DNA from: Candidatus Omnitrophota bacterium
Lineage (GTDB): Bacteria; Omnitrophota; Gorgyraeia; Zapsychrales; Zapsychraceae
Reading direction: 5' to 3'
Assembly (NCBI GenBank): GCA_018812705.1
Contig: JAHJCZ010000056.1
Location: 1 to 44,522 of the forward strand
DNA: 44,522 nt
The number at the start of each line of letters is the position of its first letter. Positions within the stretch are counted from its first letter, which is position 1. This document shows, piece by piece, positions 1-42,247 of this stretch. The notes under the pieces are model-generated. The model was not told the DNA's origin. It searched no databases and saw nothing but the letters and a program-made list of their open reading frames with translations. A program made the translations under genes and the position numbers.

Positions 1-3000
1 ATAAGTTTTTTGATTGCCGCCAAAGCATAAGTGACTTAACCAAAAAGACAATAACATCTATTTTGCTTTATGATTTTGTTGAGAAGATCATTAAGACATA
101 TTCTGATGCTGGAAAAACAATAAAGGGATATGCGGATATGCTTAGCGTCTTAGAAGAGTATTTAGCGATGTCCGGTAAGGTTCGAGCAGGCCCATCAATA
201 GTAGCGTATTATGATCCTATCCTTGATGAAATTATATATAATCTCACCCCCGAAGAAATTCAAGCCGCTCTTAAAGAAAAATATTCCGAAGAAGAAATAC
301 AGGGCCTGATCAAATTTATCACTGATCACGAAGAACTACATAAAAGTTCTCATCCAGAAGGTTCTTATGAAATTTATGCTAATGAAGAAGAAGCGGTTCT
401 TCAGATGCAGTTAAGAAAGATGACAGGAAATTTTAGCACAGATAACGACTCTTTAACTGATAATAAATACTGTTCCTATGAAGAAGCTCAAGAATTTGCT
501 TCTATTCTTAGCGAGCTTTACTTTATTCTTGATAGTGCGAGAGTTTCTAGAAGGAAGGCTTTAAGTATATTAGAGCATCTTAAGAACGGAGAACCTCTTA
601 AGTTTGCTCAAGAATTTCCGTCTGATATTCGAAGCTGGGCTATTGGATGGGTAAAAAGAATTAAGCTAGAATTTGGACAAATTTTACCATTTCTTGAAGT
701 GTGGAATGGACCTTCATATTCAGAGTTGATATTTACTCCAGAGCAAAATGCAATAATCATATTAGGCAAATCTAAATCGGGAAAATCGTCTTTAGCAGCA
801 ACGGCGCAGCATCAGGGATTTGAGTTCGGCGGAGAGCATGACACTAAGTATATTATGCTTTCCATACCAGGATATCTTTTCGCGGGGACAAGAGAACAAA
901 TATTAAAAATACGTGCTAGGGCATATTGTTTAGATGAGACAGACCCAAATAGCCGTTTGGTCCCGATAGTCAATCAGGTCTCAGCAATAGGTGTTGTCAG
1001 AAATATTGTATTGCTAAAACATAGACCGAAGTTAAATCAAAAGATCGTTGTGAGAATCCAGGAGGCTGCTGATCTTAGCGGAATTGCCAGATTAGAAGTT
1101 AAAATGCGATTAGCAAATCCCGTAAAGGTAATCCATCTTTCACACGGAAGGACGGCTGCAGCAGAATATCCTGAATTAGTTAGAAGGATGGCTATTAGCA
1201 TAGCTGAGGATAGAGATGCAAAATTAATATATTCACAAAATATTAGACAGTATATAAAGAACAGGTCGTCAGTTTTAATTAAAAGTCAAGTTGAGCAGCT
1301 TAATAAATATGCAGATATTTTAGAGATTTTAGAAGAATATTTGATCACTTCAGGAAAATTAAGAGGGGGTCCTGAGACTGTAGCTTTCTTCAGTTCTACT
1401 GCAAATGAAGTGATCTTTAATCTTTCCGAACAAGAAATGAACGAAGTACTAAAAGAGAAGTTCTCGCCAGAAGAAATCAGAGCATTAATTATATTTATTA
1501 TTGACCACGAAGATCTTCATAAAAAATTCTATCAAGAAAAAACAAGATTTAAGAGTAATGAGGCTGAAGAAGAAGCTGTTTTTGATTTGCAGTTAAATGT
1601 TAAGGTGTTATCTTCCGATGTTGGTACAGAAGAGACTTTAGCCCTTGAAGCAGCTGAAAATACAAGCGTTGAGGTTATTGAAGATGTCGAGACTAAGAAC
1701 AGTGCTATGGATGATAGTGATTATACAGAAAATTCTTGGTTGGAAGAAGAGTTAATGAGGATAGAAGCAATAGAAGAAAAATGGTTAGAGCAAATAATAG
1801 TAAGAATTGTTGATGAATCGCTGCTATGGAGAATTAGATATTCAGAAGTCAGACATATTGTTGCTTTCTTTGATGTTTGTGAAGGAAATCTTAAGGCTAT
1901 TTCATTTCTAAGGGACGCATTACTTAGAGAGGAGATCTTTGAAGAAAAAATGGGTAAATTGTGGGCAGCACTTTTAAAAGCCAAACAGGCTGTAATATTA
2001 AGAACAGACATGAGAAAGCTGATCAATCAAAAGCTTTTAAGAAATATTGAGAAGAAAATGCAAGAAGCAGATCAAAAACTTGTGCGTTTATTTAATGAAG
2101 AGGGTATAGGGCAAGGATTAACAAAAGAGAAAATTGATGCAATGCAATCAGGCTGGGAGTGGATCTACAATATTTTTGTAAGGGTTGGAAAAGAAAGATA
2201 TTTGATAGAAAAAATAGTTTCAAAAGGTGAAGAGTTTACACGTCAATTATATAGAACATGGTTAAAATTTAGATATTACAAAGAATATGCAGATCATGTA
2301 TCCGGAAGTAAATTTATTTATGCACATTACGGCAAGGCATTTGATACAGCAAGAAAATGGTTTGTTCCTAGTGCTGAGGACCGCAGAAAGATCAACAAGG
2401 CCTTAAGGGAATTATCAGAGGATTGTAATTATGCTTTTGACATAGCTTATGAAGAGTTTATGAATAAATGGTCTATATCGGTAGAGATGCCGTGGATAAA
2501 ATATGCTTATATGTCGCCGAATAATAAGGTAGTTCCCATGCCGCTTAAGATCAGATTAGCTATTCCTTTAACCAGGATTGTTGCATGGTTAAGAGGTTGG
2601 CAAGCGTCGTCAGAGGTTCACGAGAAATATAATCATAAAGTGATCGAAGGAAGAAAAATTGCAGTAGTTGCCATGTCAGGCAGTTTGACTTTTGCTAATA
2701 AAGATAAAAATGCTAATAAGGAGATATCAAGGGTATTGCTTGGGATAAAAGAAGGAAGTTTATATTTGATAGCTGATGACGATAAGGCCTTACATATCCG
2801 AGAATTAGTATCAAAAATAATGAGCAGGATCGAGTTAGATGTTGAAAGGAATTTACATATTAAAGGGTTGTTAGGGGTTCTGACTAAGCTTAAGAGAAAG
2901 AATGATAGGTTGGAGATCTGGAAGGATAAAGATATTGGAATAGTGCTTAGAGAGTTGTTGAAGAATTCTTTGAGGTTTGTTCAAGAGAGGAACGAGCATA

Positions 3001-6000
3001 ATACGGGGGATGTTGTTGTTGAAGTGATTGCCCGAGTTGAGAATGGAGAGTTTATATTAGCGATAAAAGATTATGGGCTTGGTTTTAGAAGAATAAACAA
3101 AAGAAAGATATTCTTAGAGGGCATGTCCACAAAAGAGAACGGAAAATTGAAGATAGCACAATTAGGTGGCTTAGGGTTATATTACAGCAGGCTTTTTGTG
3201 GAAATGTTCCTTGGTTGCAAGATACACGCTTTAGATAACCAAAAAGATTTAAAAGAAGAAAAGCTCGGGGCAACTTTTGAGATCGTCATATCAATGGGTG
3301 AGGATAATAAAGAGGGCATTTTGTTGGATGGCGAGAGCAGAACGAAAAGAACAGTTGAAACAGTAATTGCAACGAGCGTCTTCATTATGTTAGTGACCCC
3401 GGGGATCGTTAATGCTTCAAAAGATACGAATATTACAACAGACATTTTAGGTGTGGTATTTGCCCTTCCGGCTATTGCTAACATTGTTATTGTATACCTT
3501 GTCCTTAAGTTTGCAGCAAGATATATAGGACGAATGATTTTGAATAATCGTATTATGTTTCCGTTCCTTACAACTAAAAACAGGGCAATTTTTGTTATGA
3601 TAGTTGGCGGAATAGTCTTGCTTATAAACATGTTTGTTCATATGATTGAAGGCGTTGTAACACTGGTAAGCGTTAATGTATTTAATAAAGTTGTATACAG
3701 GCCTTTTAGATGGATATTAAGGTTTAGCAAGGCCTTAAAAAATAAAATTGAGTATAGATTAGCTAATATTAAGAATACACCAAAAGATCCTCACAGGGCT
3801 AAAGACCCTCACAACCCACCATCTGAAGAACAGATCAGGGATGATATAGATAGGCTGTCTAGAAAGAATGTATTGAGAAAGGGAAAAACTTTCAAAAGAG
3901 CTGTTGATGAAGCATTAGTTCGTGTTGGTAAACTGGATGCTGATATTTCAGATGCGCTCATAAAAATACGCGACACAATCGAGATCAGGGCAGGTGATCT
4001 CAATCATATTTGGGCTACCTACCGTGATGGCATTCTATATATTGACAGATCACTTCTTAAGAAACCTTCTCTATCTAAAGAACTACTTTTAACTTTGATC
4101 CATGAAGCTGGTGTTATCGCAGATCCGCAAAGAACTGACGAGCAGAATGAAGAATTTGCTCGACAGGTTTTAGGTATTATTCAGGATGATCTAAGCACCA
4201 GAGAAGGAATACTTAAAGGACCCGGCTATTTCAACCTTTCAAAATGGATAGAATCAAATCGTAAAATAGTTGATGAATATTTGTTTCGCTTTGACCCTAA
4301 AGGAAGAATAAAAGTAGATTATTCTCTGCCTGAAGGTGAAGAGATATACGTGAGATGTGCTCTGTCTGGAAAATTTGAAGAAGCATTAGATGAACTTATT
4401 AAGAATGCAATTGATGGGGCAATTCTTTGGTTAAGAGATAAAAGAGTTGGGGTGACAGTTGCGCATATTAGTATTAGAGTCAGAATGATTGACATTGATG
4501 ACGTGCCATATTTTGAGTTCAAGGTAGTTTATCCTGGGCTCGTTGATGATGCAAAAATGCCGGGGGATGCAGGGGTATCGTTTAATAATGCAAAGATATT
4601 TTTAGCTAGTCATTTGCGAAGCAAGCTTTTGTGCACAGAAAGCTTGGTAGAGAATGAACCAAGTGTTGAGTTTAGTTTTCGAGTAAAGCGAGCAGGTATT
4701 GGCATTGAAACGGGAATAAGAACAAATTCTTTAATTAATATGATCAATATCGCTAGAAATAGCATGCGCTCCGAGATTGATAGAATTAAAAGACATGCAT
4801 TTGATATCCGCGTGGCTGTTGATAATTATTTGTCCATTGCTGAATATTGCAAACACAGGCTTTATCCAGTCATATACGAGCTTCTTAAAAATATGGTCGA
4901 TGCAGAGATCATATATCGTGAAAGTAATAAAGTTTGTGAAAAAAGAGACCTGTTTGTTGAGGTAAATAGATGGGGAGCAGACAAGGTCATTGTTTTATTT
5001 AAAAGCATGGGAGAAATTGATGAAGAAAGAATTAAGGCGGCAGCAAAGCATTTAGGAATATATGTGCCTTGTGAAGAACAGGTAATTAAGGGTACTTTTA
5101 AGTTTATTACTACACATCTGATTTCAGATGAGCCAATGTCGCTAAAACGTTTAAGTGATGGAGAGATAGACAAGCTTTCTTTAAAGACGCTCTTGTTTGA
5201 GACGAAAGGCTTTACAACAAAAAATGAGGCAATGTTGTCAGAGCATGGCATGAAAAGATCTGATATACCTGGCGGAGAAGGATTAGGTTTGCAGCAATCC
5301 AGCATGACTATTGAGATGATGGGTGAAGAATATGAACTGAATTATACAACAGCAAAAGAAAACGGTGAGCCGGTTGTCATTTTTACACTTGTTATTCCGC
5401 TTGAGAAAGAACAAAAAGTTGCGAACAGGACTGACGAGCAGAATGAGCCGTTTGCGCATAAAGAAGTTGCTAATAGGCAAAATGTAATAAGTATCCCGAC
5501 TACATTGTATTATCCCGGAGGTGGTTTTGACATGCAGGCGATCCTTCAGGAGCCGAATGTGAAAAAGGCTATCATTGTTGATGAAATGGATGACTGGTCA
5601 ATAATTCTTTGGAGGATATTGCAGGAATTCAAATATCGTCATCCTGAAGTTGTAATAAACGAAATATTTACCCCTGAGATGTCTGTATCAACAAAGAGCC
5701 TTATTGGTTCATATATTGAGCATGATAAGGTCAAACAAGAACAAAGCCGTGGCTATTTGACTTTGAATATACAGACATCACAGGGTAAAAAACAAATTCA
5801 TTATTATTATGGTCATAGCATGTTTGAATCAGGCATATGGTTCAAGGCTGGGATTGACAGGGATCCTTTGCTTGTTAAGGTAAGGCAGTTTCCTCTATTC
5901 GAGAGAGGGGAATGGGGCAAGGATTATTTGGATGAAATGCTTGGCTTTATTGATAACCTGCCTACCTATAGCATGATAGAAAACGACTATTTTATAGAAG

Positions 6001-12000: not shown

Positions 12001-15000
12001 TGTTCAGGTTTAAAGAAGAGTATGCGCCTGAATTTAAAAACAGATTAGGCGGATTAGCTGCTGATTATTTTGAAGTACACAATGTTATTTTAAACCTCGG
12101 GGGAAAAGCAGTCTTTGTAAAAAGGGCTGTTGTCCAGCGCAAGACAGTTGTTGTTAAGAATAGGATCAATGAGCTGCTTAAACAAGGGAATAAAGAAGAG
12201 TCTCTCGATATTTTAATTAAGTGTATGGAAATACAGCGAAGCTTGTGGCGAAGGGGATTTAATTTCATTGAGTTTGTCCACCCACTAAGTAATTTCGGCA
12301 TTAACAAAAATGGAGAAGTTGTATTAATTGATGTTGGATGTCTTTATGAAAGAAGGCCGGCAATCATTGTGCGGCTAGTTTTTAATGAATGGCTTATGCA
12401 TTTACTATGGCATGAAGTTTTAATACCTTTAGTTCTTTTATTTATAGCGGGGCCGTATTTAGCTGTCAGATATCAACAAGAGGCGTACAAAGGGATGTTG
12501 AGATGGGATGAAATGACCTCTTTGTGGGAAACAGAGAAAGTATCAGGACTGAATATTAAGAAGGTTTCACGCATGTTCAATATGCCTGATAGTGAAAAAG
12601 TTAAAGCGCTTGAAAAGTTATGTGACGCAACATTAGAGGAAGCGGTTAATGCGCCGGGAAGAAGCGGGGAAACCAGGCTTTATTATATTCAGGACATAGA
12701 TGGCGGAGGTAAGTTTCAAAGGGCAAGCCTGCAGGCTGTGGACGTAATGTTTAGAAAAATGCGCTTTACCAAAGGCAAAAGATTTCTTGATGTGGGTTCA
12801 GGAGACGGAAGGGTTGTTTTCTTAGCTGCCATGCATGGTTTGGATGCGACAGGCGTTGAAAGAGATAAGAGGCAGAAAGCTTTAATAGAGAAGGATGAGA
12901 GTGAAGGGATCGATAATAATTTGTTCGGAAAGGGCACAACACACTGGCTTTGGGAAGATGTAATGGATATCGATCTATCACAATATGATGTGATATTTCT
13001 GCATGATGGAGGCTTAAACAAGAATAAAGAAAAGCTTGAAGAGAAGATCATAAGAGAAGGAAAAGGGTCAGTTCTGTTTGTTGTCATGGGTGAACGTTGG
13101 CCTTATTTGAATCGGTTAAAGCCGGTAAGGAGAGTTCTTAATTTATGGAACAGGATGTATTTGAGAGGGTTCGTTGTATTTGCGAAAGACAAAACAACAC
13201 TAAAGGCTAAAAGACAAAGCGTCCTTCCTCTTAAGAGCAGAGACATTGCCCAAGAAACAACTGTTGCTGAAAAGAGAAAAAGTGAACCTTGCGGAGTGAC
13301 GAATTATAAAGCTGAACCTTGGGTATTAGTTGTTCTTGCTGCTGGTATGGGGAGCCGGATGAATTCTACAGAACGTATTCCCAAGCCTGCCCGAAAAGTA
13401 GGCGGTAAGCCGTTAATTAGATATTTTCTTGATGCAGCAAAAACAATCAATATCCCGACAATAGCTGTTCTTGGTTTTGGGGCAGCTTCGGTTAAAGAAG
13501 TTTTACCCGAGGATACAGAATATGTAGTATCAGATAATCGCCAACGAAACAGTAAAGGTTTTATGCCTATAATAAGAGACTTTATGGCATCATACTCACT
13601 TTTAAAAGATTTTCATGGGAATATGATGATCGTGCCGGCTGATATCGTCATACTTAATGAGGAAATTTTAAAATATCTTCAGAAAGCGCATAGCCCTCCG
13701 CAAGAGAAATGTGCATGGTGTACAGTGATAACGGCGGGAGATATAGACATCTTTGTTATAAATTGGAAAACATTTAAATTATTAAATATATTCCTTCATT
13801 TGGCTAATATTGTTACAGCAGGTACCCAATTATATAAAAAAATATCAAGTGATCAATCTCAGGTGATGTCTCAAGATACGAGAAGCCATGACAATGTAAA
13901 ACGAAATGCATTTATAGGGAAAAAGAAGGTTAGGGTCAAGAAAGATAAGAAGAAAACGCTATGGTATATTTTGTACAAAAAATTATTGGGTTGGCTGTCA
14001 TCGAGAAATGTTGTCCGTTTTGTTAAAGATACAAATGAGCTGTTGTTACTGAACGTAAATACGCAAAGAGATATTAAATATGCTGAAGAGCGCTTGGCGC
14101 AAGAGCATAAGAAAGCATCGAAACATCTTAAAGCAAATAAACCGCCAGCAATGCAGACCAGGTTCAGGAAAAAGTTTGAGCATTATAAAGAAATGGGCAA
14201 AGAAGATTGGTTTGTTACAAGATATGTTCCTTTAAGAGAAGAATGGGCAAGAGGGGTATTCAAGCGCGGACCGCCTCAAGAATTTGTTGATGAGCATACT
14301 GAAGTTTATGACGCCGAAATATGCAAATGGAGAACACCTACTGCAAAAGAAACAGGAGAGCTTCTTATATTAGCTAAACGATGTGATCAAGCATATTCAT
14401 ACACGAAGAGCAGTTTCTGGTTTTTACCGATAATCCGCAATTTTATTGCCTACCGGTCCGCTGTTACAGTTCATGCCGAACATAATAAAAAAGTTTTTGA
14501 TTCTCAAGAAGGCATTTATGGCATTGCTGGCACAGCTCCTGAGAATAGAAAATATAATGTGCTTATATTATGCCGAGGGAATCAGGAGCGGTCTCCCATG
14601 GCTCATAAGCTTGTTGCAATGAACATCCCAGAGGATCTAAAAGGACGATTAATCATCGATTCTGCAGGTATAAATGGGTCCGTTGATGATCCTGGATTAG
14701 AAAGACAGTTAAAAAGGCATCCGATACTTCGAAGACATTATTCTGTGGAAGTGAAAATGCAGCAATTGAAAGAAGCAGATATTATCTTTGTTATGACAGG
14801 TTCGCAAATAAAGTCTTTGCTGAAAAAGGATGCGGGTCTTCAAGGAAAGATATTCCTTCTTTTAGATGGCCGCGATCTTCATGTTGATCCTGATGAAGAT
14901 AATCCTGACTATGGGCCAAGTTATGTGAGCTTAGAGAAGACTATAAGGAGTAGATTGGATGTTGTTTTTAATCGAATTCGTGCAAGGATAGAGGTTATCA

Positions 15001-16925
15001 ATGTTCCTTTAGCCCCTATAGCTTCAAGGGTGTTGCCGTCTGATGCTAAATTGGTAGACGCTCTTCGTATTCATGAATTTATTGCAGAGTATCCAGAATA
15101 TTTGCAGGCCTATTATGATGAAGATAATCCAGTTTATCCTACAGGGTGCAGGAGTTTTAGCTTTGCGATCGCTGAAAAGATGAGAGAGGTTGGTATCGAT
15201 GCATATATTGTTAGCAGCCAAAAAGATTACTGGTATTTATCGGTGCTGGCCGTTTTGCAGGATGGTTCTATAGAAGAATGTATTATAGATTTTACAGCGG
15301 ATCAATTTGTCAAAGAAAAAATCTCTCCAGTGTTTTTATCAAGAAGCGAGGTTAAAAAACAGTTTGCTTCACTATATGATCGTGTTTGGCATGATACTTC
15401 AAAAGTAGTGCCGATTGAAGAAGCTCTAATGGATGATTGGTTTCTAGAATATATTGCAATTATCGAATTAATTATTAAGTGGCAAAGAATAAAGGCACAG
15501 TCCCCTAAAAAGGACAGCTATTTGGCTTCGCTCTACCACGATAATGAGGGTTTGCAGAAAGATTTAGATACGGGAAAAATACGTTTTGTTGATGTCCGAT
15601 GGGAGATCAATGTTCCGGGGGATCTTTGTTTGGAAGGAAAATTCACATTTATATCGAATAGGTTGAAGAAATTTCTCGGGTGGAATAAGGCCTCCAAAGT
15701 TACTTTGGCTATACGGGATTTTTCAGGGGATAAAGTTATAATTGAAGATGCATTGATCATGCGTTGGCTGAGTGAAAAAAAGCTTGTTTTGGATTTTAAT
15801 AGACGTGTTGAACATCATCAAAATAATAAATTTGTGATAATTGAAGAACTAGTTCAGGGCACTAGTAGCGGTTCCGATAATAGCAATCCTGCAATGAAAA
15901 ATAAATTCAAAGAATTGCATCAATATTATAAAAGTATTGGAAAAGAAGAGTGGTTCGTCACTAAATATGTTCCGAGTAAAGAAGAGTGGTCCAGGGGTAT
16001 CTTTAGGCGCGAACCGCCTCAAGAATTTGTTGATGAGCATATTGAAATTTATGATGCAGAATCAGGGAACTGGAGAGAGCCTACCGAAAAAGAAAAAGAA
16101 GAACTGCTGATCTTAGCCTGCCGATGTGATCAATCCTATTATCAAACAAAGAAAAAATTATGGTGGCTGCTGATATTAAGAAACTGGTTCGCCTACCGTG
16201 AGGCGGTAAAGGTTCACACCGATCATAATAAAAATGTCTTTGATTATAAAAAGGGAGTTTATGGTATCGCAGGTAAATTACCAGAAAAAAGAATATATAA
16301 TGTGCTTATTTTATGCCGGGGCAATCAGGAGCGCTCTCCCATGGCGCATAAACTTGTTGAAATGAATATGCCTGCGGACCTAAAAGGAAGATTAATTATT
16401 GAATCTGCAGGAATAAACGGGCCAGTTGATGATTTTGGAATAGAAATGCATTTAAGAAGGCATCCGATACTTCGAAGACATTATTCTGTAAAAGTTACAG
16501 AACAGCAATTGAGAGAAGCAGATATTATTTTTGTCATGACTCTATCCCAAGTTAAGTCTTTACTGAACATGGATCCAAGCCTCAAAGAAAAGATATTCCT
16601 TCTTTTAGAAGGCAGAGATCTGGAGGTTAGTTATAAGGACGATTATCCTGAACATGGGCCAACTTATAAGGGTTTAGAGAAGACTATAAGAAGTGGCTTA
16701 GATGGTATTTTTTATCGTATTCGCACCCAAATAAAAGTGATCAACAGAACTGGAAATAGAAATCCTGCAATGAAAACAGAGTTCAAATCTTTGCATAAGT
16801 ATTATAAAAATGCTGGAAAAGAAGAGTGGTTCGTCACTAAATATGTGCCACGCAAAGAGGAGTGGTATTTAAGCGCGGCCCGCCTCAAGAGTTTGTTGAT
16901 GCGCATAATGAAGTGTATGATGTGA
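1..16925 (+). CDS. Giant multidomain protein, N-terminal part missing, C-terminus frameshifted
   Basis: The frame is open from the left edge. The codons before the TTG at 63 contain no stop, so 63 is not the real start and the gene begins outside the window. About 5640 codons are visible. Residue numbers here count from the TTG at 63. Many enzyme-like domains are joined by membrane segments; each is listed separately. Recognisable pieces include HExxH repeats, an HprK-like P-loop, GHKL ATPases, an M50 protease, a NagB-like domain, two Rossmann methyltransferases, a kinase-like fold, a nucleotidyltransferase and two CX5R phosphatases. Hydrophobic segments near residues 1100-1200, 2283-2350, 2765-2816, 3020-3040 and 4113-4137 suggest a membrane-bound product. 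The last 20 or so residues, after position 16866, are out of frame and meaningless; the true continuation is the frame 16862-18559. Very large ORFs are known from Omnitrophota. The overall function is unknown. Confidence 0.9.
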   Translation, partial: KFFDCRQSISDLTKKTITSILLYDFVEKIIKTYSDAGKTIKGYADMLSVLEEYLAMSGKVRAGPSIVAYYDPILDEIIYNLTPEEIQAALKEKYSEEEIQGLIKFITDHEELHKSSHPEGSYEIYANEEEAVLQMQLRKMTGNFSTDNDSLTDNKYCSYEEAQEFASILSELYFILDSARVSRRKALSILEHLKNGEPLKFAQEFPSDIRSWAIGWVKRIKLEFGQILPFLEVWNGPSYSELIFTPEQNAIIILGKSKSGKSSLAATAQHQGFEFGGEHDTKYIMLSIPGYLFAGTREQILKIRARAYCLDETDPNSRLVPIVNQVSAIGVVRNIVLLKHRPKLNQKIVVRIQEAADLSGIARLEVKMRLANPVKVIHLSHGRTAAAEYPELVRRMAISIAEDRDAKLIYSQNIRQYIKNRSSVLIKSQVEQLNKYADILEILEEYLITSGKLRGGPETVAFFSSTANEVIFNLSEQEMNEVLKEKFSPEEIRALIIFIIDHEDLHKKFYQEKTRFKSNEAEEEAVFDLQLNVKVLSSDVGTEETLALEAAENTSVEVIEDVETKNSAMDDSDYTENSWLEEELMRIEAIEEKWLEQIIVRIVDESLLWRIRYSEVRHIVAFFDVCEGNLKAISFLRDALLREEIFEEKMGKLWAALLKAKQAVILRTDMRKLINQKLLRNIEKKMQEADQKLVRLFNEEGIGQGLTKEKIDAMQSGWEWIYNIFVRVGKERYLIEKIVSKGEEFTRQLYRTWLKFRYYKEYADHVSGSKFIYAHYGKAFDTARKWFVPSAEDRRKINKALRELSEDCNYAFDIAYEEFMNKWSISVEMPWIKYAYMSPNNKVVPMPLKIRLAIPLTRIVAWLRGWQASSEVHEKYNHKVIEGRKIAVVAMSGSLTFANKDKNANKEISRVLLGIKEGSLYLIADDDKALHIRELVSKIMSRIELDVERNLHIKGLLGVLTKLKRKNDRLEIWKDKDIGIVLRELLKNSLRFVQERNEHNTGDVVVEVIARVENGEFILAIKDYGLGFRRINKRKIFLEGMSTKENGKLKIAQLGGLGLYYSRLFVEMFLGCKIHALDNQKDLKEEKLGATFEIVISMGEDNKEGILLDGESRTKRTVETVIATSVFIMLVTPGIVNASKDTNITTDILGVVFALPAIANIVIVYLVLKFAARYIGRMILNNRIMFPFLTTKNRAIFVMIVGGIVLLINMFVHMIEGVVTLVSVNVFNKVVYRPFRWILRFSKALKNKIEYRLANIKNTPKDPHRAKDPHNPPSEEQIRDDIDRLSRKNVLRKGKTFKRAVDEALVRVGKLDADISDALIKIRDTIEIRAGDLNHIWATYRDGILYIDRSLLKKPSLSKELLLTLIHEAGVIADPQRTDEQNEEFARQVLGIIQDDLSTREGILKGPGYFNLSKWIESNRKIVDEYLFRFDPKGRIKVDYSLPEGEEIYVRCALSGKFEEALDELIKNAIDGAILWLRDKRVGVTVAHISIRVRMIDIDDVPYFEFKVVYPGLVDDAKMPGDAGVSFNNAKIFLASHLRSKLLCTESLVENEPSVEFSFRVKRAGIGIETGIRTNSLINMINIARNSMRSEIDRIKRHAFDIRVAVDNYLSIAEYCKHRLYPVIYELLKNMVDAEIIYRESNKVCEKRDLFVEVNRWGADKVIVLFKSMGEIDEERIKAAAKHLGIYVPCEEQVIKGTFKFITTHLISDEPMSLKRLSDGEIDKLSLKTLLFETKGFTTKNEAMLSEHGMKRSDIPGGEGLGLQQSSMTIEMMGEEYELNYTTAKENGEPVVIFTLVIPLEKEQKVANRTDEQNEPFAHKEVANRQNVISIPTTLYYPGGGFDMQAILQEPNVKKAIIVDEMDDWSIILWRILQEFKYRHPEVVINEIFTPEMSVSTKSLIGSYIEHDKVKQEQSRGYLTLNIQTSQGKKQIHYYYGHSMFESGIWFKAGIDRDPLLVKVRQFPLFERGEWGKDYLDEMLGFIDNLPTYSMIENDYFIEGDLKHPELMAGLGFDLVTISEREFYVKTRQRDPNELLGHVSIDSFSEGSMLDNLNQLPVNRESGEEDRKGSLKVRGRFRLPQKFKGKLPESKQEEIRRRIENIIGFFGGIDKIISLKKEEREKLSFEWARYFGVGLIDVSGNKYSRQVLIALRTMVEAGSKPCVVIRSENLVRLLKNIFPWIDFNFAEIRKHEIFIVMNKGLMDEYGLDYFITTVHETIEILVSATGSRDELFFRDFGHQNYFVLEVEMDLASRIGIAERMLEIREAKDLSNMVPVSAFKYRAYLEAVRGFVNKTVISKKSDQGFVLPELLAVIAGMMSLGFLALKNIQWADILGWMTRIGATGSLPTNEYSIVIVVIAVLTAVLLIILTKYINSKKVLQFSSNQIRSENPELNIDKDIFMSKMSGMPPESIWNAPGWSPFEGKYLYRAITSEEWEAIQEKREYLIGKATLFERIMGDRITLYKQKQYNAGFLVRVRAGRLHFLQSDFHPTRAKAYLKHTLDKRSFEISSDGEEWLDIDSYLKRQAEREQVVANLVISAIKPLSEKIVNWDEVALIKGQLIKAVKASKGKAAFFIHPGGDFLGEIKRGKLEPIYERTDIYVSNLRKYFEGATGVVFVLGGCYELIKDVKTRAIIVEIPTKQNNEGAQPIPALETKSCDFKWSEWNPVVAFMQDIGVNKISSFGGELAVVTDDNHVIKSLHDHGCVGGGLEYLSKRFSINVFPQLCCGKGQNKHLLKSKSIDTDNYWIVNIDDGSNKDKPVIRLEAKKTKEKSGDTINAQVVDAGYAMGIIFAAAMIIASLLFVTLKPIIVFVVTKEILVIFAGGLIISVIIFAGFNKLFDPLQSIFSTGCYFRDIIEIWRSIFKVYQKIWEIISWPAYMIWKYYTFRIHESAHYIAARALKQPVNGVDYSEESKGVARTYVKLTGLENWKVIFITLAGPVTNLISGTVFLCLINFERLGALDWYMFPAYFGICMAALEYSTFVLNLMPTSNLPLGRGTKDGDLIIRSLQLLWKGKRTFYFHNDSKKRNELQAKRNNRRVTPDIRLLLLIVPIFGWMLGSIYRKLVKSDERKIRISNKENLSRDVSRAVAQRISELQKDPERIVRIVLATGNTMVGFLDSLSREEGIDWTRVYAYHLDEYKGLDTDNEYSFAYYLNHHLFSKVKGIPRENIRYVDGKNPDLRGYLRELDDNGGADIVMLGIGKNGHLGFNEPGTSFWSTMREIELTESTIKANKPDYPNIEEIPFAYTMGLRNIFRGKHLFFVASGEGKAQIVKKALEGRVTNKVPGSLIQMHPRVDIFLDYEAASQLKNKSLKQIDKVEQKPLAMGPKWNYAYYKNIGREQWFVTKHVSYAEERERGIFKRGPPFAFVNMHTEVLDVITGQRRPPTEAEQVKLLKLALDTDEAYYRTKRILWFLPILRDWFAYRSAAKVHAAYNMEVYRSHIGIYAIRENDIQADGGIIEDDDSSTTERASSAQVSFNSVKWAKIPEVRLSDEVMESGRTGLFMTDNHIAVGALKNGDIDDIRSQIDEKLAGLEREFKLLLRGKSWSAKFKVVYYKGLVCIVPTTWKITEDEFLAALSEVMTQDRYNSCYKEGKPLIFFPVKHIIDHDENNVLQNFMIASNLREKIIFVNVSFTIINESLADDKRMKHENAGPLFLRTLLESVFLSSRKNIRYSFRKEFRQIFKAMKEMNPDLWENLTRLKAILFEQDIISRETLNAVRGEDEIESENVPQVRGIRYSGTTCRLKSLKRVWAVRRSIGCELNDRSEVLEIGAGAGTLTRSLAEVSEQRGLSRARFVATDINEDAVNDARRNLAGYQNVEVRAAGDLDEPISREERFTHIIWNPPWFIDNKNTACLAKPNWYDPGFKDIQRFLTIMPGYLADGGSIFVIYPQENSEILRALAEQCKLTVEELDLYGSREHVEIIFRLKPEQSKLLSAGEEKPLEFPEAERGTIKNILEKAELYEVGRGWNRKVWSSKDLDFVVKIPRQNIFFVVLAKVFSLMFRFKEEYAPEFKNRLGGLAADYFEVHNVILNLGGKAVFVKRAVVQRKTVVVKNRINELLKQGNKEESLDILIKCMEIQRSLWRRGFNFIEFVHPLSNFGINKNGEVVLIDVGCLYERRPAIIVRLVFNEWLMHLLWHEVLIPLVLLFIAGPYLAVRYQQEAYKGMLRWDEMTSLWETEKVSGLNIKKVSRMFNMPDSEKVKALEKLCDATLEEAVNAPGRSGETRLYYIQDIDGGGKFQRASLQAVDVMFRKMRFTKGKRFLDVGSGDGRVVFLAAMHGLDATGVERDKRQKALIEKDESEGIDNNLFGKGTTHWLWEDVMDIDLSQYDVIFLHDGGLNKNKEKLEEKIIREGKGSVLFVVMGERWPYLNRLKPVRRVLNLWNRMYLRGFVVFAKDKTTLKAKRQSVLPLKSRDIAQETTVAEKRKSEPCGVTNYKAEPWVLVVLAAGMGSRMNSTERIPKPARKVGGKPLIRYFLDAAKTINIPTIAVLGFGAASVKEVLPEDTEYVVSDNRQRNSKGFMPIIRDFMASYSLLKDFHGNMMIVPADIVILNEEILKYLQKAHSPPQEKCAWCTVITAGDIDIFVINWKTFKLLNIFLHLANIVTAGTQLYKKISSDQSQVMSQDTRSHDNVKRNAFIGKKKVRVKKDKKKTLWYILYKKLLGWLSSRNVVRFVKDTNELLLLNVNTQRDIKYAEERLAQEHKKASKHLKANKPPAMQTRFRKKFEHYKEMGKEDWFVTRYVPLREEWARGVFKRGPPQEFVDEHTEVYDAEICKWRTPTAKETGELLILAKRCDQAYSYTKSSFWFLPIIRNFIAYRSAVTVHAEHNKKVFDSQEGIYGIAGTAPENRKYNVLILCRGNQERSPMAHKLVAMNIPEDLKGRLIIDSAGINGSVDDPGLERQLKRHPILRRHYSVEVKMQQLKEADIIFVMTGSQIKSLLKKDAGLQGKIFLLLDGRDLHVDPDEDNPDYGPSYVSLEKTIRSRLDVVFNRIRARIEVINVPLAPIASRVLPSDAKLVDALRIHEFIAEYPEYLQAYYDEDNPVYPTGCRSFSFAIAEKMREVGIDAYIVSSQKDYWYLSVLAVLQDGSIEECIIDFTADQFVKEKISPVFLSRSEVKKQFASLYDRVWHDTSKVVPIEEALMDDWFLEYIAIIELIIKWQRIKAQSPKKDSYLASLYHDNEGLQKDLDTGKIRFVDVRWEINVPGDLCLEGKFTFISNRLKKFLGWNKASKVTLAIRDFSGDKVIIEDALIMRWLSEKKLVLDFNRRVEHHQNNKFVIIEELVQGTSSGSDNSNPAMKNKFKELHQYYKSIGKEEWFVTKYVPSKEEWSRGIFRREPPQEFVDEHIEIYDAESGNWREPTEKEKEELLILACRCDQSYYQTKKKLWWLLILRNWFAYREAVKVHTDHNKNVFDYKKGVYGIAGKLPEKRIYNVLILCRGNQERSPMAHKLVEMNMPADLKGRLIIESAGINGPVDDFGIEMHLRRHPILRRHYSVKVTEQQLREADIIFVMTLSQVKSLLNMDPSLKEKIFLLLEGRDLEVSYKDDYPEHGPTYKGLEKTIRSGLDGIFYRIRTQIKVINRTGNRNPAMKTEFKSLHKYYKNAGKEEWFVTKYVPRKEEWYLSAARLKSLLMRIMKCMM
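114..416 (+). other. Domain: HExxH repeat domain, copy 1
   Basis: Residues about 18-118 of the giant protein. A helical segment (LEEYL.. SGK.R.GP) leads to HEELH at residues 89-93, followed by an acidic EEEA stretch near 108-111. The layout matches a small zincin-like metal site: two histidines and a glutamate in HExxH plus a downstream acid. The same domain recurs at residues 409-511. Peptidase activity is inferred only from the motif. Confidence 0.5.
735..1050 (+). other. Domain: P-loop, HPr kinase C-terminal-like
   Basis: Residues about 225-330. The Walker A is G235-KSKS-G240-K241-S242, preceded by a hydrophobic strand (IIIL) and followed by a Gly/His-rich turn. This arrangement resembles the HprK/P serine kinase-phosphorylase C-terminal domain, which has the P-loop in a single beta-alpha unit. 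The HprK signature region further downstream is not clearly recognisable, so nucleotide binding is likely but kinase activity toward HPr is not supported. Confidence 0.45.
1287..1596 (+). other. Domain: HExxH repeat domain, copy 2
   Basis: This is a diverged second copy of the domain at 114-416. LEILEEYL..SGKLRGGP aligns with LSVLEEYL..SGKVRAGP, and HEDLH (residues 482-486) aligns with HEELH, again followed by an acidic EEEA segment. The two motifs are 393 residues apart, with the P-loop domain between them. Conservation of both histidines and the glutamate in both copies, while surrounding residues differ, suggests the metal site is under selection. Confidence 0.5.
2928..3290 (+). other. Domain: GHKL (HATPase_c) copy 1
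   Basis: The N box RELLKNSLRF has Asn968, the G1 box is DYGLGF (Asp1003), and the G2 box GGLGLYYSR starts at residue 1035. All ATP-binding boxes of a histidine-kinase-type ATPase are present. No HisKA dimerisation helix with a phospho-accepting His is visible immediately before it; the preceding ~500 residues are mostly charged helices. Membrane segments follow it. Confidence 0.7.
3360..3680 (+). other. Three predicted transmembrane segments in the giant protein
   Basis: Three hydrophobic stretches lie at about residues 1100-1118, 1135-1157 and 1175-1200 (for example FVMIVGGIVLLINMFV). They separate the first GHKL domain from the following HEAGV and GHKL domains, so the protein is probably anchored in a membrane here. 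Confidence 0.6.
3780..4200 (+). other. Domain: HEAGV-containing domain
   Basis: Residues about 1240-1380. A helical region precedes LIHEAGVIAD (His1347, Glu1348), followed by RTDEQNEEFARQVL. His-Glu plus a downstream acidic segment could form a metal site, but the second His of HExxH is absent (HEAGV), so it is at best a degenerate zincin. The RTDEQNE segment recurs after the third GHKL domain (around 5430-5455). Confidence 0.3.
4260..4690 (+). other. Domain: GHKL-like copy 2, degenerate
   Basis: The N box DELIKNAIDGA (Asn1448) is clear. The expected G1 box DxGxG is not: the corresponding stretch is YPGLVDDAKMPGDAG. The G2 box is also weak. ATP binding is doubtful. It sits between the HEAGV domain and GHKL copy 3. 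Confidence 0.5.
4845..5400 (+). other. Domain: GHKL-like copy 3
   Basis: The N box YELLKNMVDA has Asn1610 and the G2 box GGEGLGLQQS is at 1737-1746, but the G1 box is replaced by KSMGEID. The C-terminal strand order (EPVVIFTLVIPL) is typical of HATPase_c ends. It is related to copies 1 and 2, making three consecutive GHKL-type folds in one polypeptide. Confidence 0.55.
5460..6890 (+). other. Unassigned region of the giant protein with an HETIE motif
   Basis: Residues about 1800-2276. I recognise no family. It contains a soluble alpha/beta-looking part (YYPGGGFDMQ, KKAIIVDEMDDW). A helical domain follows, with FITTVHETIEILVSA (His2195, Glu2196) and FGHQNYFVLEVEMDLA downstream, which could be another degenerate metal site. 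It ends just before the prepilin-like hydrophobic segment. Confidence 0.3.
6909..6977 (+). other. Prepilin-like hydrophobic segment inside the giant protein
   Basis: After KKSDQ comes GFVLPELLAVIAGMMSLG, starting at Gly2283. It reproduces the type IV prepilin cleavage pattern: basic stretch, Gly, Phe, hydrophobic, Glu at +5, long hydrophobic helix. Pro at +4 is unusual. In real prepilins this sits near the N-terminus; here it is internal, so it may mark an ancient fusion or be coincidental. Confidence 0.4.
7140..8340 (+). other. Unassigned soluble region of the giant protein
   Basis: Residues about 2360-2760, between two membrane segments. It contains YLYRAITSEEWEAI (about 2405) and FLQSDFHPTRAKAYL. 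A later part has FIHPGGDFLGE, VVFVLGGCYELI and a Cys/Gly-rich DHGCVGGGLEYL. The second half has the strand-Gly pattern of an alpha/beta hydrolase or isochorismatase-like fold, but I cannot name a family. Confidence 0.3.
8355..9060 (+). other. Domain: M50 (site-2) membrane metalloprotease
   Basis: Hydrophobic segments at residues 2765-2816 precede HESAH (2868-2872), a canonical HExxH set in a membrane-entry context. Then come LAGPVTNLISG and NLMPTSNLPLGRGTKDGD (2964-2981), which match the family's third-ligand region NxxP...DG. All three zinc ligands are therefore present. Family members cut transmembrane helices; the substrate is unknown and could include this protein itself. Confidence 0.7.
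9231..9920 (+). other. Domain: glucosamine-6-phosphate deaminase (NagB)-like, one catalytic residue changed
   Basis: Residues about 3057-3286 cover a whole NagB-type fold: LATGNTMVGF phosphate loop, YHLDEYKGL (Asp3116, the enolising base), GIGKNGHLGFNEPG, and NKVPGSLIQMH. His3184 and Glu3189 of the ring-opening relay are kept. The aspartate of the family's DGH is Asn3182. That change would be expected to weaken or alter catalysis, so this could be a sugar-phosphate sensor rather than a working deaminase. Confidence 0.75.
9975..10340 (+). repeat. Module copy 1 of four (about 125 residues)
   Basis: It begins WNYAYYKNIG, has REQWFVTKHV, IFKRGPP, FLPILRDWFAYRSA and KVHAAYN, and ends GIYAI. It is the most diverged copy. 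The other copies start at 14151, 15894 and 16770. I do not recognise the family. It follows the NagB-like domain. Confidence 0.85.
10345..11200 (+). other. Unassigned region of the giant protein
   Basis: Residues about 3428-3713. An acidic/Ser linker is followed by an alpha/beta part (VVYYKGLVCIVPTTW, KPLIFFPVKHIIDHDENN, KIIFVNVSF) and then charged helices. No family is recognised. Position suggests it is the 'payload' between module copy 1 and the first methyltransferase. Confidence 0.3.
11262..11775 (+). other. Domain: SAM methyltransferase 1 (NPPW type)
   Basis: Motif I VLEIGAGAGTLTRSL starts at residue 3746, motif II is VATDINEDAVNDA, and motif IV is NPPW at 3821-3824. The NPP(Y/F/W) motif is typical of methyltransferases acting on planar nitrogen (HemK/PrmC, RsmC, N6-adenine enzymes). 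Motifs are intact, so activity is plausible. The target is unknown. Confidence 0.75.
11850..12480 (+). other. Domain: protein kinase / aminoglycoside phosphotransferase-like fold
   Basis: YEVGRGWNRKVW resembles a glycine-poor loop. VVKIPRQ provides a candidate ATP-anchoring Lys3962, and NFGINKNGEVVLIDVG gives an Asn and a metal-binding Asp4090 (DVG in place of DFG). The usual HxD catalytic loop is replaced by HPLSNFG, so the catalytic aspartate is not evident. A hydrophobic segment follows (VLLFIAGPYLAV). RIO, APH or UbiB-like relatives are possible. Confidence 0.55.
12690..13190 (+). other. Domain: SAM methyltransferase 2
   Basis: Motif I is RFLDVGSGDGRVVFLAA (Asp4243), followed by TGVERDKRQ and YDVIFLHDGG. 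The pattern resembles class I methyltransferases with an acidic loop after strand 4, and SAM binding looks intact. The domain is unrelated in detail to methyltransferase 1, which has an NPPW. Confidence 0.65.
13318..14100 (+). other. Domain: nucleotidyltransferase (GlmU/MobA-like), partly degraded
   Basis: LAAGMGSRM (4425-4433) followed by KPARKVGGKPLI is the NTP-binding signature of sugar nucleotidyltransferases. MMIVPADIVIL supplies the metal-site Asp. The central part is poorly conserved and contains a Lys/Arg-rich insert. The end LNVNTQRDIKYAEERL matches the family's usual 'NTPEDL..AE' C-terminus. No left-handed beta-helix follows. Confidence 0.65.
14151..14531 (+). repeat. Module copy 2 of four
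   Basis: It starts MQTRFRKKFEHYKEMGKEDW and ends GIYGIAG. Shared landmarks are WFVTRYVP, EEWARGVFKRGPPQEFVDE, CDQAY, FWFLPIIRNFIAYR, VHAEHNKKVF. This intact copy shows the ten bases that copy 4 has lost. It leads directly into phosphatase domain 1. Confidence 0.9.
14550..14996 (+). other. Domain: low-molecular-weight protein phosphatase 1
   Basis: VLILCRGNQERSPMA carries the CX5R(S) phosphate loop (Cys4837, Arg4843). IIDSAGI and ADIIFVMT follow in the family order. The DP-loop equivalent is DNPDYGPSY, which keeps an Asp that could be the general acid. Length and order match LMW-PTP/arsenate reductase family members. Confidence 0.8.
15010..15890 (+). other. Transglutaminase-like remnant and unassigned linker between phosphatase domains
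   Basis: TGCRSFSFAIAEKMREVGI (Cys5029) and CIIDFTADQF (Asp5076) resemble the Cys and Asp positions of transglutaminase-like cysteine hydrolases. The His between them is missing: DYWYLSVLAV stands where GHHW-type residues would be expected. The rest (about 5100-5275) is an unrecognised soluble region ending in a Ser/Gly linker before module copy 3. Confidence 0.35.
15894..16274 (+). repeat. Module copy 3 of four
   Basis: It starts MKNKFKELHQYYKSIGKEEW and ends GVYGIAG, and is closely similar to copies 2 and 4. A 33-nt stretch (15938-15970) is identical to 16814-16846 in copy 4, indicating recent duplication or gene conversion. It leads directly into phosphatase domain 2. Confidence 0.9.
16290..16745 (+). 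other. Domain: low-molecular-weight protein phosphatase 2
   Basis: This is a duplicate of phosphatase domain 1 with the same ILCRGNQERSPMA loop (Cys5418). A 33-nt tract (16457-16489) is identical to 14714-14746. The acid-loop equivalent reads DYPEHGPTY, with Glu where copy 1 has Asp, so kinetics or function may differ. The domain is otherwise complete. Confidence 0.8.
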
Positions 16926-17134
16926 AATTAGGCGAATGGAGAAAGATCTCTGAAGAAGAAAAAGAAAAATTACTAAGAATTGCACGACAATGTGATCAAG
17001 CTTATCTGCGTATAAAAGATAAGTTTTGGTTCCTGCCTATTATTAGAAATTTCATTGCTTATCGAGCGGCGGTTAAAGTTCATGCTGAGCATAATAGAAA
17101 AGTCTTTATGTCAGGGCTCGGTATTTATGCAATT
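16770..17134 (+). repeat. Module copy 4 of four, frameshifted by a 10-nt deletion
   Basis: It starts MKTEFKSLHKYYKNAGKEEW in the first frame and continues VFKRGPPQEFVDA from 16862 in another frame, ending GIYAI. Aligned with copy 2, the bases coding for the W-ARG-V junction are ten short. This copy precedes the LOG-like domains. Confidence 0.85.
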
Positions 17135-18559
17135 TCACTAGCAAATGGACACAACGGACACAATGGAAAAAATGGTCATGTAAAGAGTAAAAGTGAATTA
17201 AAGAAAAGGGATGTTGCCTTCAGAAGACTCCTTCGGGAAATTACAGAGGAACGCTTGTTGGTGTGGAAAAAAGTTAGACAGCTTGAACCAGCGATCTCTA
17301 TTTTAGGAAGTGCGCGTATTGCAGAGAATCATTTTGTTTATCAACAGGGCCAAAGAATTGGCGAAGCTTGTGCCCAGAGAGAAGTTCCTGTAAGAACCGG
17401 CGGAGGTCCATCAATGATGGAAGCACCTTTTGTTGGGTCGTTAGCACAGAGACTGGTAAGGGGATTGACTAGGAGAAGAAAAATACAAAATCAGGCTATA
17501 AACATAATTTTTACGGATAAAGAAGATCCTAATCCTTATGGAGAAATAAGTTTAAATTTCAATCGCTTTATTACACGTAAATGGGGGTTAACTGAAAATA
17601 TACTTGGAGGAATATTTGTTTCAGGGGGGTATGGTACGCTTGATGAACTTTTCGAATTTTGGCGCAGGGGCATACCTATTGTCCTGTTTGGATCTGATTT
17701 TTATGACCCTATAGTTACAGCGTTCCTTAGGTTTGTAGATGCTAATGACAATACTAGAAGCATTTCTTATCGAGACAAACTATTTATTACTGATGATCCA
17801 CAAGAAGCAGTAGAATTTATTCTTCGTAAAGCAAAAGAATACCCAATTGAAAGAACTTCTAAAAAAGATTATATGGATATTATTAAGAGCTTTAAAAGCA
17901 GTTTGTATTATTTAAAGGATAGGCCTCGTAGTGTTGTTTTTCAGGGAAGGCCTAAGAGCGAAGCAATACTTGATTTTGCTGCAAGATTAATGCAGATGAT
18001 AGCAGAAGATTCTAATACGAGCAAGCAGGGTATTGGCATTCGAGTAGGAAGCAAGGGCGCGCTTTATGCACGTCTAAGCGAGGAAGCAAAGTTAAAAGGA
18101 TTGCATGAAGCATTTGAAGCAGTTTTGTTTTCACCTGATAGCGATATAAGATTGGAAGCAGACTCTTTGATATTTGGTCGGAATATTATTAGGTTAAGGG
18201 ATGAATCTAATCAACAATTAATAGCTGCATACAATTCTCATGCTTTTGTATTTTTTCCGGGAGCTGTTGGCACTATGAACAGGTTGTTTGATCTTTTATG
18301 TGTAATGCAGACAAATAAGATAAGTAAAAGACCAATAATAGTTGTTGATGATAATGGTAGCTGGCGAGAGTTTTTTATGCTTTTGCGGGAGAAAATGTAT
18401 ACTGAATGGAAACAGGCCGGCTTGGATTTTGCAATGATATCTAAAGAAGATATTGATTTTCTGCAGTTCGTAGATGTCAGGGATCAAGATGCTCTTGAAG
18501 AAACGATGCGCGCGATCAGTAGACAAGTCGTATTAGATAATGGACACTTTATCCCTTAA
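16862..18559 (+). CDS. C-terminal continuation of the giant protein: module copy 4 remainder plus two LOG-like domains
   Basis: The frame opens with a GTG at 16862 and encodes 565 residues. It begins exactly where module copy 4 of the giant gene loses frame (VFKRGPPQEF follows EEW), so it is better read as the downstream half of a frameshifted gene than as an independent protein. The purine-rich AGAGGAG that could act as a ribosome site directly abuts the GTG, which is too close for normal initiation. After the module there is a short Gly/Asn/His linker. Next comes a LOG/TIGR00730-type Rossmann domain with GGGPSMMEA and SGGYGTLDE (residues 254-262; the family has PGGxGTxxE). A second, more diverged copy has PGAVGTMNR (466-474). 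LOG proteins cleave nucleoside monophosphates to release the base; here the first copy may be active and the second probably is not. No terminator is evident after the stop. Confidence 0.75.
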   Translation: MVFKRGPPQEFVDAHNEVYDVKLGEWRKISEEEKEKLLRIARQCDQAYLRIKDKFWFLPIIRNFIAYRAAVKVHAEHNRKVFMSGLGIYAISLANGHNGHNGKNGHVKSKSELKKRDVAFRRLLREITEERLLVWKKVRQLEPAISILGSARIAENHFVYQQGQRIGEACAQREVPVRTGGGPSMMEAPFVGSLAQRLVRGLTRRRKIQNQAINIIFTDKEDPNPYGEISLNFNRFITRKWGLTENILGGIFVSGGYGTLDELFEFWRRGIPIVLFGSDFYDPIVTAFLRFVDANDNTRSISYRDKLFITDDPQEAVEFILRKAKEYPIERTSKKDYMDIIKSFKSSLYYLKDRPRSVVFQGRPKSEAILDFAARLMQMIAEDSNTSKQGIGIRVGSKGALYARLSEEAKLKGLHEAFEAVLFSPDSDIRLEADSLIFGRNIIRLRDESNQQLIAAYNSHAFVFFPGAVGTMNRLFDLLCVMQTNKISKRPIIVVDDNGSWREFFMLLREKMYTEWKQAGLDFAMISKEDIDFLQFVDVRDQDALEETMRAISRQVVLDNGHFIP

Positions 18560-19059: not shown

Positions 19060-19746
19060 ATGGCTAATCACAAGATATTAATAGTCGAAGATGACAAAGA
19101 TATATCTGAAATGATCAGATATAATTTGGAAAAAGATGGGTACAGTACTGTATCTGTTTTTGACGGGGAAAAGGTTTCGCAAGTTGTAAAGGCCAGTAAG
19201 CCTGACCTGATCATCCTGGACATTATGCTCCCTGGCATGGATGGGCTTGAGATATGCAAAAATCTTAAGAGAGATCAGTCAGCGGAAGATATCCCAATTA
19301 TCATGCTCACCGCAAAGTCCCAAGAGTCAGATAAGATCGTTGGATTGGAATTAGGAGCCGATGATTATGTGACAAAACCTTTTAGCCCGAAAGAATTGAT
19401 CGCAAGGATCAAGGCAGTCTTAAGACGGCAAAAACCAGCAGTTAAAATCAAAGAAATTAAAATTGGAGATCTAGCTATAAATCAATTAAAGCATAAAGTC
19501 ACTGTGCAAGCTAGAGAAGTTGCTCTTACTGCATCCGAGTTTAAGCTGTTAAGTTTATTGGCAGGCAGGCCAGGCATAGTTATTTCACGAGAGGAAATAT
19601 TGAATCAAGTCTTTGGTTATGATTCATCCAGCTATGATAGGACTGTTGATACGCATATAAAATCCCTAAGAAAAAAAATAGGGGATGTAAAGAGTTGTAT
19701 CGAGACCGTCCGTGGAGTGGGTTATAGATTTAAGGATGAGCCATAA
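19060..19746 (+). CDS. phoB: PhoB-type response regulator (OmpR/PhoB family)
   Basis: A 228-residue transcription factor with the usual two-domain layout. The receiver domain (about 1-120) has the acidic pair EDD, phospho-acceptor Asp54 in LIILDIMLPG, MLTAKS and TKPFSP with the conserved Lys. The C-terminal winged-helix DNA-binding domain (about 130-225) has LTASEFKLL and the typical end DTHIKSLRKKIG...VRGVGYRF. The start codon has no clear Shine-Dalgarno sequence. The stop overlaps the next gene's start in TAATG. With the neighbouring PhoR-like kinase, Na/Pi transporter and PhoU-like gene, and the pho-box repeats, PhoB is the most likely identity. OmpR-family regulators are hard to tell apart by sequence alone, so the name rests partly on context. 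Confidence 0.8.
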   Translation: MANHKILIVEDDKDISEMIRYNLEKDGYSTVSVFDGEKVSQVVKASKPDLIILDIMLPGMDGLEICKNLKRDQSAEDIPIIMLTAKSQESDKIVGLELGADDYVTKPFSPKELIARIKAVLRRQKPAVKIKEIKIGDLAINQLKHKVTVQAREVALTASEFKLLSLLAGRPGIVISREEILNQVFGYDSSSYDRTVDTHIKSLRKKIGDVKSCIETVRGVGYRFKDEP

Positions 19747-21170: not shown

Positions 21171-21184
21171 TAACTAATGGCCAG

Positions 21185-21249: not shown

Positions 21250-21270
21250 TTACCCATGAAAGGGGAATAT

Positions 21271-22386: not shown

Positions 22387-22400
22387 AGAGGAGAAAAAAT

Positions 22401-24975: not shown

Positions 24976-24979
24976 AATT

Positions 24980-27550: not shown

Positions 27551-27559
27551 TGGGACAAT

Positions 27560-27588
27560 AGAATACCATAATGAAAAAAATGGGTCAA
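27560..27588 (-). promoter_or_regulatory. mutS promoter, nearly leaderless
   Basis: On the minus strand TTGACC (27588-27583), a 17-bp spacer and TATTCT (27565-27560) form a good sigma-70 promoter. Transcription would start about 3 nt before the mutS ATG at 27550, leaving no room for a Shine-Dalgarno sequence. Confidence 0.55.
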
Positions 27589-27592
27589 ATGG

Positions 27593-27638
27593 AATTAGGG
27601 ACAAACTCTTTTTGCCTAAAAAGAGTCTGTCCCTAATT
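27593..27638. repeat. 46-bp palindromic element (21-bp arms)
   Basis: Arms 27593-27613 and 27618-27638 are complementary over 21 bp with one G-T pair and a 4-nt GCCT loop. The outer part AATTAGGGACA/TGTCCCTAATT resembles REP-type elements mobilised by REP-associated tyrosine transposases, by my recollection of such repeats. It lies upstream of the mutS promoter. Confidence 0.6.
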
Positions 27639-27727
27639 GCCCGTCCGATTTCATGATTCCGCAGGCATTTTTGTTCAATGAATCTCATTGAAGCATTTAG
27701 ATTCGTTGGTGATGAAAATGCCCTATT

Positions 27728-35683: not shown

Positions 35684-35687
35684 TAAG

Positions 35688-39402: not shown

Positions 39403-39421
39403 TTATTGGGGTTTTGATAGT

Positions 39422-42223: not shown

Positions 42224-42247
42224 ATAAATTTACAGCAAGGGATAATA

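Follow-up and report, generated by a model that had tools for sequence, protein, structure and literature searches.

A giant gene beside mutL in Omnitrophota: module turnover within one selected frame and a candidate membrane-anchored multi-enzyme

The stretch of DNA analysed here (the window) is a whole contig of 44,522 nucleotides from a Candidatus Omnitrophota bacterium (GenBank JAHJCZ010000056.1, assembly GCA_018812705.1; contig C180 of source genome G000), and all frame coordinates are given on its forward strand. Its left part is occupied by a giant gene that enters from beyond the contig edge and converges with mutL and mutS (Table 1). This gene combines more than a dozen enzymes that otherwise occur as separate proteins. 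The initial annotation had described a long open reading frame (ORF), open at the contig edge, and a tail in another phase that belongs to the same protein. Both ORFs lie as described, and the sister species G001 (Omnitrophica WOR_2 bacterium RIFOXYA2_FULL_38_17, a metagenome-assembled genome of the same genus) bears out their union: one uninterrupted frame covers the equivalents of both, with the tail 73% identical over its whole length. The frameshift interrupts copy 4 of a repeated module of ~130 amino acids (aa), where ten bases are absent by comparison with copies 2 and 3 and with the G001 ortholog. Because G001 reads through and the break consists of ten missing bases, the alignment supports the 5,640-aa frame and the tail as one gene, and the break is best read as a lesion confined to this site, or an error of assembly, and not as a gene border. 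Programmed frameshifting at the junction was considered and rejected, a 10-base deletion being the preferred explanation.

The gene reaches far beyond the window. In G001, contigs C3 and C76 have 95 identical end bases in common, across which the same frame continues, and C36 overlaps the other end of C3 by 66 identical bases, again in frame; together they encode ~16,170 aa (~48.5 kb), uninterrupted and with no start reached, and a search for overlaps with further G001 contigs found none. In the window genome, contigs C21, C26 and C180 tile in that order on the G001 protein. C21 supplies 8,599 codons with one in-frame TAA, at a position that is Tyr in G001, and C26 supplies 2,511 codons, open at both ends. 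Allowing for the two lesions, the giant of the window genome measures at least ~17,300 aa (at least ~52 kb), a length for which the contig order rests on the sister G001, both genomes being draft multi-contig assemblies and the window genome 93% complete. The window holds about 36% of the gene, its C-terminal part. The leftward contigs confirm the expectation that the protein is larger than the window; a very long single protein was correctly recognised, but the figure of more than 6,100 residues was far too low. Contig C82, a candidate for the next upstream piece, is joined by a repeat only and was left out of the length. Near-identical long repeats within the giant gene (L006 3784-4143 and 7279-7533) coincide with contig ends, where the assembly breaks.

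Comparison of the sister species separates what is constrained in this gene from what is exchanged. Eleven aligned blocks are 61-84% identical between the window genome and G001, with a ratio of nonsynonymous to synonymous substitution rates (dN/dS) of 0.10-0.28 in every block, and the downstream genes follow in the same order in both genomes. Since dN/dS is this low throughout the aligned blocks, the giant is a selected gene under purifying selection and not a chimera; dN/dS and synteny also led us to reject a pseudogene. The blocks are interrupted by species-specific stretches of 280-690 aa (examples of extra stretches in G001 measure about 280, 340 and 690 aa), and the window genome shows a tandem enlargement around an HExxH module relative to G001. 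Whole modules have been gained, lost or duplicated between the sister species while the frame was kept.

Two explanations would deprive the giant of meaning as a unit. The first, that the frame is a chimera of the assembly, takes some encouragement from contigs that are metagenome-derived and broken at repeats. The initial annotation had named such a chimera, or the lack of any homologue with the same domain order, as what would speak against its protein; instead, an independent sister genome has the same module order, the contig overlaps are exact and downstream synteny is conserved. A chimera is refuted for the module order, leaving only the two lesions as potential assembly errors, and we regard it as having next to no probability. 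The second is neutral or decaying in-frame concatenation of genes with no joint function, consistent with content that is almost completely different between genera, with catalytic residues lost in some domains (LOG2, GHKL2) and with the two lesions in the window genome's copy (the 10-base deletion and the in-frame TAA). The selection test strongly disfavours it, with dN/dS at 0.10-0.28 in all blocks, as do stop-free frames of 13,000 to 45,000 codons in several genomes, and we consider it very improbable.

The position of the giant is conserved well beyond the genus. In G016, from another genus of the same family, a frame of 44,856 codons without N, its 5' end open (G016:C3 2-134569; L069-L075), ends 0.9 kb from mutL, and mutS and the following genes stand in the window's order; it is the only giant-size frame in the 250 kb of G016:C3. 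We surveyed the DNA on the 3' side of mutL across the order, counting the genomes with at least 10 kb there (n=31, six families). Of the 31, 21 have a frame of at least 3,600 codons that converges with mutL, as a raw count: 12 of 14 genomes in the window's own family, all five in families f2-f5 and four of the 12 in f7. The gaps between giant and mutL range from 0 to 9 kb, and some giants are not directly adjacent. BLAST coverage between giants of different genera is mostly below 25%, the paired LOG domain being the most widely shared piece. The locus-mates carry FBPase and phosphoglucomutase in G079; methyltransferases, DnaJ and a receiver in G015; PPDK, hexokinase and LOG in G023; and LpxR, Fic, NUDIX and signal peptidase II in G019. 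From these comparisons, a giant gene appears to be kept in the slot convergent with mutL while its enzyme content differs by genus. Tentatively, the slot may be an enzyme-collecting locus in which one giant is held in place over long evolutionary times, ordinary enzyme genes are repeatedly captured into the frame and lost again, and each genus comes to have a single-chain multi-enzyme of its own, in place of or in addition to separate proteins.

Several observations concern the surroundings of the locus. Between the giant and mutL, the window carries a PhoB-PhoR-like pair, an Na/Pi cotransporter and PhoU (19060-23069), where G016 has only 0.9 kb, and a polysaccharide cluster lies at 31760-43306 (glycosyltransferases, O-antigen ligase, carbamoyltransferase and heptosyltransferase-like genes). 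The whole 79.6-kb contig G018:C10 (L065-L068) is one frame of 26,531 codons. An N-terminal domain of ~360 aa with a signal-peptide-like start (GRDMLAQDYILKQLTASL) and no Pfam family (L124, G079:C54:151-1362) occurs in nearly every genome of the order (71 of 74), with 12 copies in the window genome and at most about 30 in any one genome, and heads proteins of about 400 to 6,000 aa whose C-termini vary.

Table 1. Features of the giant gene and its anchor in the window (positions on the forward strand)
Feature	Position	Strand	Evidence or remark
Giant ORF	3..16925	+	5,640 aa, stop-free, no start; 5' end beyond contig edge
HExxH module 1	39..422	+	HEELH at 327-341; E 5e-72; AlphaFold pLDDT 84.5
Walker A P-loop motif GKSKSGKSS	765..791	+	motif only; no PDB relative
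HExxH module 2	1257..1604	+	HEDLH at 1506-1520; E 9e-53
GHKL ATPase (GHKL1)	2931..3290	+	PF02518 E 4e-12; N, G1, G2 boxes at 2952, 3066, 3165
Membrane-segment cluster 1	3354..3644	+	hydropathy
Two GHKL-like N boxes (4386-4418, 4875-4901) and a G2-like box (5271-5294), degenerate	4386..5294	+	motif only, no Pfam match
Two modules without family, membrane segments 6912-7109	5475..8300	+	72% and 61% identical in G001; no PDB relative
M50-like membrane metalloprotease	8382..9182	+	HESAHY 8664-8681; PF02163 E 4e-4, below curated cut-off; 79% identical in G001
Glucosamine-6-phosphate deaminase (NagB), conserved motifs	9225..9872	+	Pfam 4e-18; PDB 4e-39
Linker module copy 1 (EQWFVTK ... WFLPILRD ... 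AYR)	9957..10343	+	
Class I methyltransferase 1, WNPPW motif (PrmC/HemK-like)	11286..11720	+	E 2e-13
Kinase-like motifs (VVKIP; HPLSNFGIN; LIDVG)	11940..12338	+	motif only
Class I methyltransferase 2	12735..13000	+	weaker Pfam stretches; 84% identical in G001
MobA/GlmU-like nucleotidyltransferase	13329..13721	+	PF12804 E 3e-11
Linker module copy 2	14136..14528	+	E 3e-71
Low-molecular-weight (LMW) phosphatase 1	14559..14924	+	CX5RS intact, 14568-14594
Linker module copy 3	15879..16271	+	E 1e-72
LMW phosphatase 2	16302..16667	+	CX5RS intact, 16311-16337
Linker module copy 4, split by frameshift	16755..17137	+	
Break point	16840..16885	+	ten bases absent vs linker copies 2, 3 and G001 ortholog (alignment)
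C-terminal tail ORF	16862..18559	+	565 aa, different phase; end of linker copy 4 and two LOG (lysine-decarboxylase-like) domains
LOG domain 1	17243..17827	+	GGYGTLDE intact; PDB 5wq3 E 1e-20
LOG domain 2	17879..18511	+	PGAVGTMNR; Glu of usual GGxGTxxE motif replaced
mutL and mutS	23170..27688	-	convergent with giant gene; conserved anchor of locus

About ten of the domains predicted in the window part are confirmed by our searches. From the initial list these are two HExxH modules, one GHKL, NagB, methyltransferase 1, the nucleotidyltransferase, two phosphatases and two LOG domains; the M50 protease and methyltransferase 2 have weaker matches (the former with its HESAHY present), and the P-loop, GHKL folds 2 and 3 and the kinase fold show motifs with no family match. 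By profile search, the LMW phosphatase family is matched at E 6e-27 and LOG at E 2e-22. Catalytic motifs are intact in NagB, both LMW phosphatases, LOG1, GHKL1 and methyltransferase 1. The NagB domain is distinct from the other PF01182 protein of the window genome (24% identity), which reads by its sequence as phosphogluconolactonase-like; for this reason, the giant's NagB may be the sole glucosamine-6-phosphate deaminase in the window genome, at its given completeness, and in G001. About ten hydrophobic, probably membrane-spanning segments in the window part agree with the several membrane segments noted initially; the linker module, present in four copies, had been overlooked. A PX-like PDB match at about 15120-15330 (E 0.01) was judged to be chance, and Rfam found nothing in the window.

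The upstream contigs of the window genome add matches to GH77, a Kdo-transferase-like and other glycosyltransferases, HD, TPR, M54, GNAT and RelA/SpoT, together with further LOG and HExxH modules, and the G001 giant additionally contains GT4, an ARMT1-like phosphatase, another nucleotidyltransferase and HPr. Beyond the genus, the relatives detected for the linker and HExxH modules all lie within frames of roughly 1,500-38,000 codons across the order, the upper figure being inflated by N runs (the 37,904-aa frame of G056 is mostly N and was not used for length). A search of viral contigs with the linker gave no match. In the HExxH module, the HExxH motif is invariant and an EE pair nearly invariant over 10 sequences, and the AlphaFold model is confident (pLDDT 84.5, pTM 0.81); fold searches of this model and of the linker model (pLDDT 61) against the PDB returned nothing below E 1. 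The HExxH module is a putative peptidase.

Such embedded peptidases raise the possibility of a polyprotein, made as one chain and released as separate enzymes by its own HExxH and M50 peptidases. The invariance of HExxH over divergent copies, the M50-like domain and the repetition of linkers between enzymes would suit this, as would G019, whose giant joins the outer-membrane LpxR to inner-membrane and soluble enzymes and is hard to place as one chain. The presence of embedded peptidases does not, however, show self-cutting, and no conserved cleavage motif was identified. One prepilin-like motif (6909-6947) lacks Pfam support and was not seen in other genera. A scan for internal starts gave six chance-like matches to a Shine-Dalgarno sequence plus start, none at a module border (other frames, 14 and 0). 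We judge a polyprotein improbable. The prepilin-like motifs GFVLPELLAVIAG and KGFVINEMLLSF (window 6909-6947; L006 aa 417) lie mid-giant and could possibly be relics of captured pilin-like genes; as prepilin-type cleavage sites, at 6909-6947 and in C26, they were set aside as patterns only, for which Pfam N_methyl gave no support.

The arrangement of the giant relative to the membrane bears on where its enzymes would work, and two indirect signals, charge and cysteine content, address it. Hydropathy predicts about 30 hydrophobic segments over the giant of the window genome. Lys and Arg beside these segments are enriched on the long-loop side (z 3.6 in the window genome, z 2.2 in G001); the same enrichment is found in the giants of G18, G075 and G025 and is absent in G016, G031 and G050. 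This charge pattern suggests that the modules of the window genome, G001, G18, G075 and G025 giants face the cytoplasm. Low cysteine content is often seen in exported proteins. The G016 giant has 20 Cys in 44,856 aa and the G031:C63 giant (L122, L152, L153) has zero in 14,647 residues, and both lack the charge bias. The charge and cysteine signals would then agree for G016 and G031, which look exported, and partly conflict for the window giant.

We favour, at about even probability, a membrane-anchored multi-enzyme facing the cytoplasm, because the module families have cytoplasmic substrates and keep their motifs. A single polypeptide of at least ~17,300 aa would cross the inner membrane several times, with its enzyme modules (sugar-phosphate, nucleotide-sugar, methyl-transfer, phosphatase, ATPase and metallopeptidase) mostly on the cytoplasmic face. 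As the modules largely keep their catalytic motifs, the chain could serve sugar, envelope and signalling chemistry. Its content changes as whole modules are gained, lost and duplicated, and the repeated modules may supply stretches of homology that help this turnover, presumably by recombination. Of the three readings offered by the initial annotation, the membrane-anchored one, as a multi-enzyme, fits best, and the cleaved polyprotein found neither a cleavage site nor an internal start in its favour.

Several points weigh against a cytoplasm-facing multi-enzyme. Cysteine makes up 0.7% of the window part and 1.5% of the neighbours (p 3e-5), which leans towards export, and the locus-mate in G079 starts with a signal-peptide-like stretch. 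The available contigs stop short of the giant's own N-terminus, where any signal sequence would lie, and the topology is from hydropathy only. The 10-base deletion and the in-frame TAA, if real, split the window genome's copy into three products.

The main rival is a cell-surface or exported giant for predation or host contact, with its enzymes displayed on or delivered into another cell. Published proposals for Velamenicoccus archaeovorus and for Lipocone-bearing Omnitrophota giants point this way, as do the nearly Cys-free locus giants of G016 and G031, without cytoplasmic charge bias, and the signal-peptide-like start in G079; a predation role would be plausible for the phylum. In the window's genus, however, cysteine is present and the long loops carry a cytoplasmic-type charge pattern, the enzyme families require S-adenosylmethionine, nucleoside triphosphates and sugar phosphates, and Pfam scans of the window genome's giant list no adhesin, RTX or carbohydrate-binding family. 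We consider export possible but rather unlikely here.

Giant multi-domain proteins of Omnitrophota are a kind already known. Giant ORFs over 20 kb, with few annotated domains, occur in most Velamenicoccia, and Ca. Velamenicoccus archaeovorus encodes a protein of 39,678 aa (Seymour et al., PMC10066038). The window giant has the traits of that group, namely membership in Omnitrophota (via G001), a frame over 20 kb and multiple transmembrane segments (hydropathy), and it resembles those giants in its poor conservation between lineages. They are described as having few annotated domains and, in Omnitrophia, adhesin domains, whereas the window giant is rich in enzymes of intracellular type whose motifs are intact; for the window giant, both the locus and the order in a sister species are on record here. 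A second account (PMC12419801) concerns gigantic Omnitrophota proteins in which polysaccharide enzymes occur together with histidine-kinase relay domains, metallopeptidases, methylases and membrane segments; those bearing Lipocone are treated there as prey-directed effectors, with a proposed role in attacking prey. The window giant likewise joins all of these classes in a single chain, kinase-relay parts included; the passages considered describe no locus for the published giants. The Pfam scans of the giants list no Lipocone domain, although no search aimed at Lipocone was made. Given these reports, the initial statement that no described system has this order holds only for the exact order. 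The literature searched yielded no description of that order, of module turnover between sister species, of a mutL locus with exchangeable content or of enzyme modules that, as in this genus, apparently face the cytoplasm.

Resemblances to other giant proteins are looser. MARTX-type toxins carry exchangeable enzyme modules in one giant chain, with RTX repeats and a cysteine-protease processing domain; these two features are absent from the Pfam scans of the window-genome and G001 giants, in which the N-terminus is not covered, and the resemblance is in logic only. Type I polyketide and peptide megasynthases are very long chains of enzyme domains with assembly-line repetition of a catalytic set, which the window giant lacks, and carrier, condensation and ketosynthase domains are absent from the same scans.

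The giant genes of Omnitrophota are among the longest known, and published accounts describe them as difficult to assess and little conserved. Two sister species that share one order make it possible to see how such a giant is built, through block-wide selection, whole-module turnover and repeated private modules. The fixed place next to mutL offers a way to locate the corresponding giant in each genome of the order and to learn which of its content stays constant. If the fused enzymes work, a chain of more than 17,000 residues would be carrying out ordinary metabolic steps.

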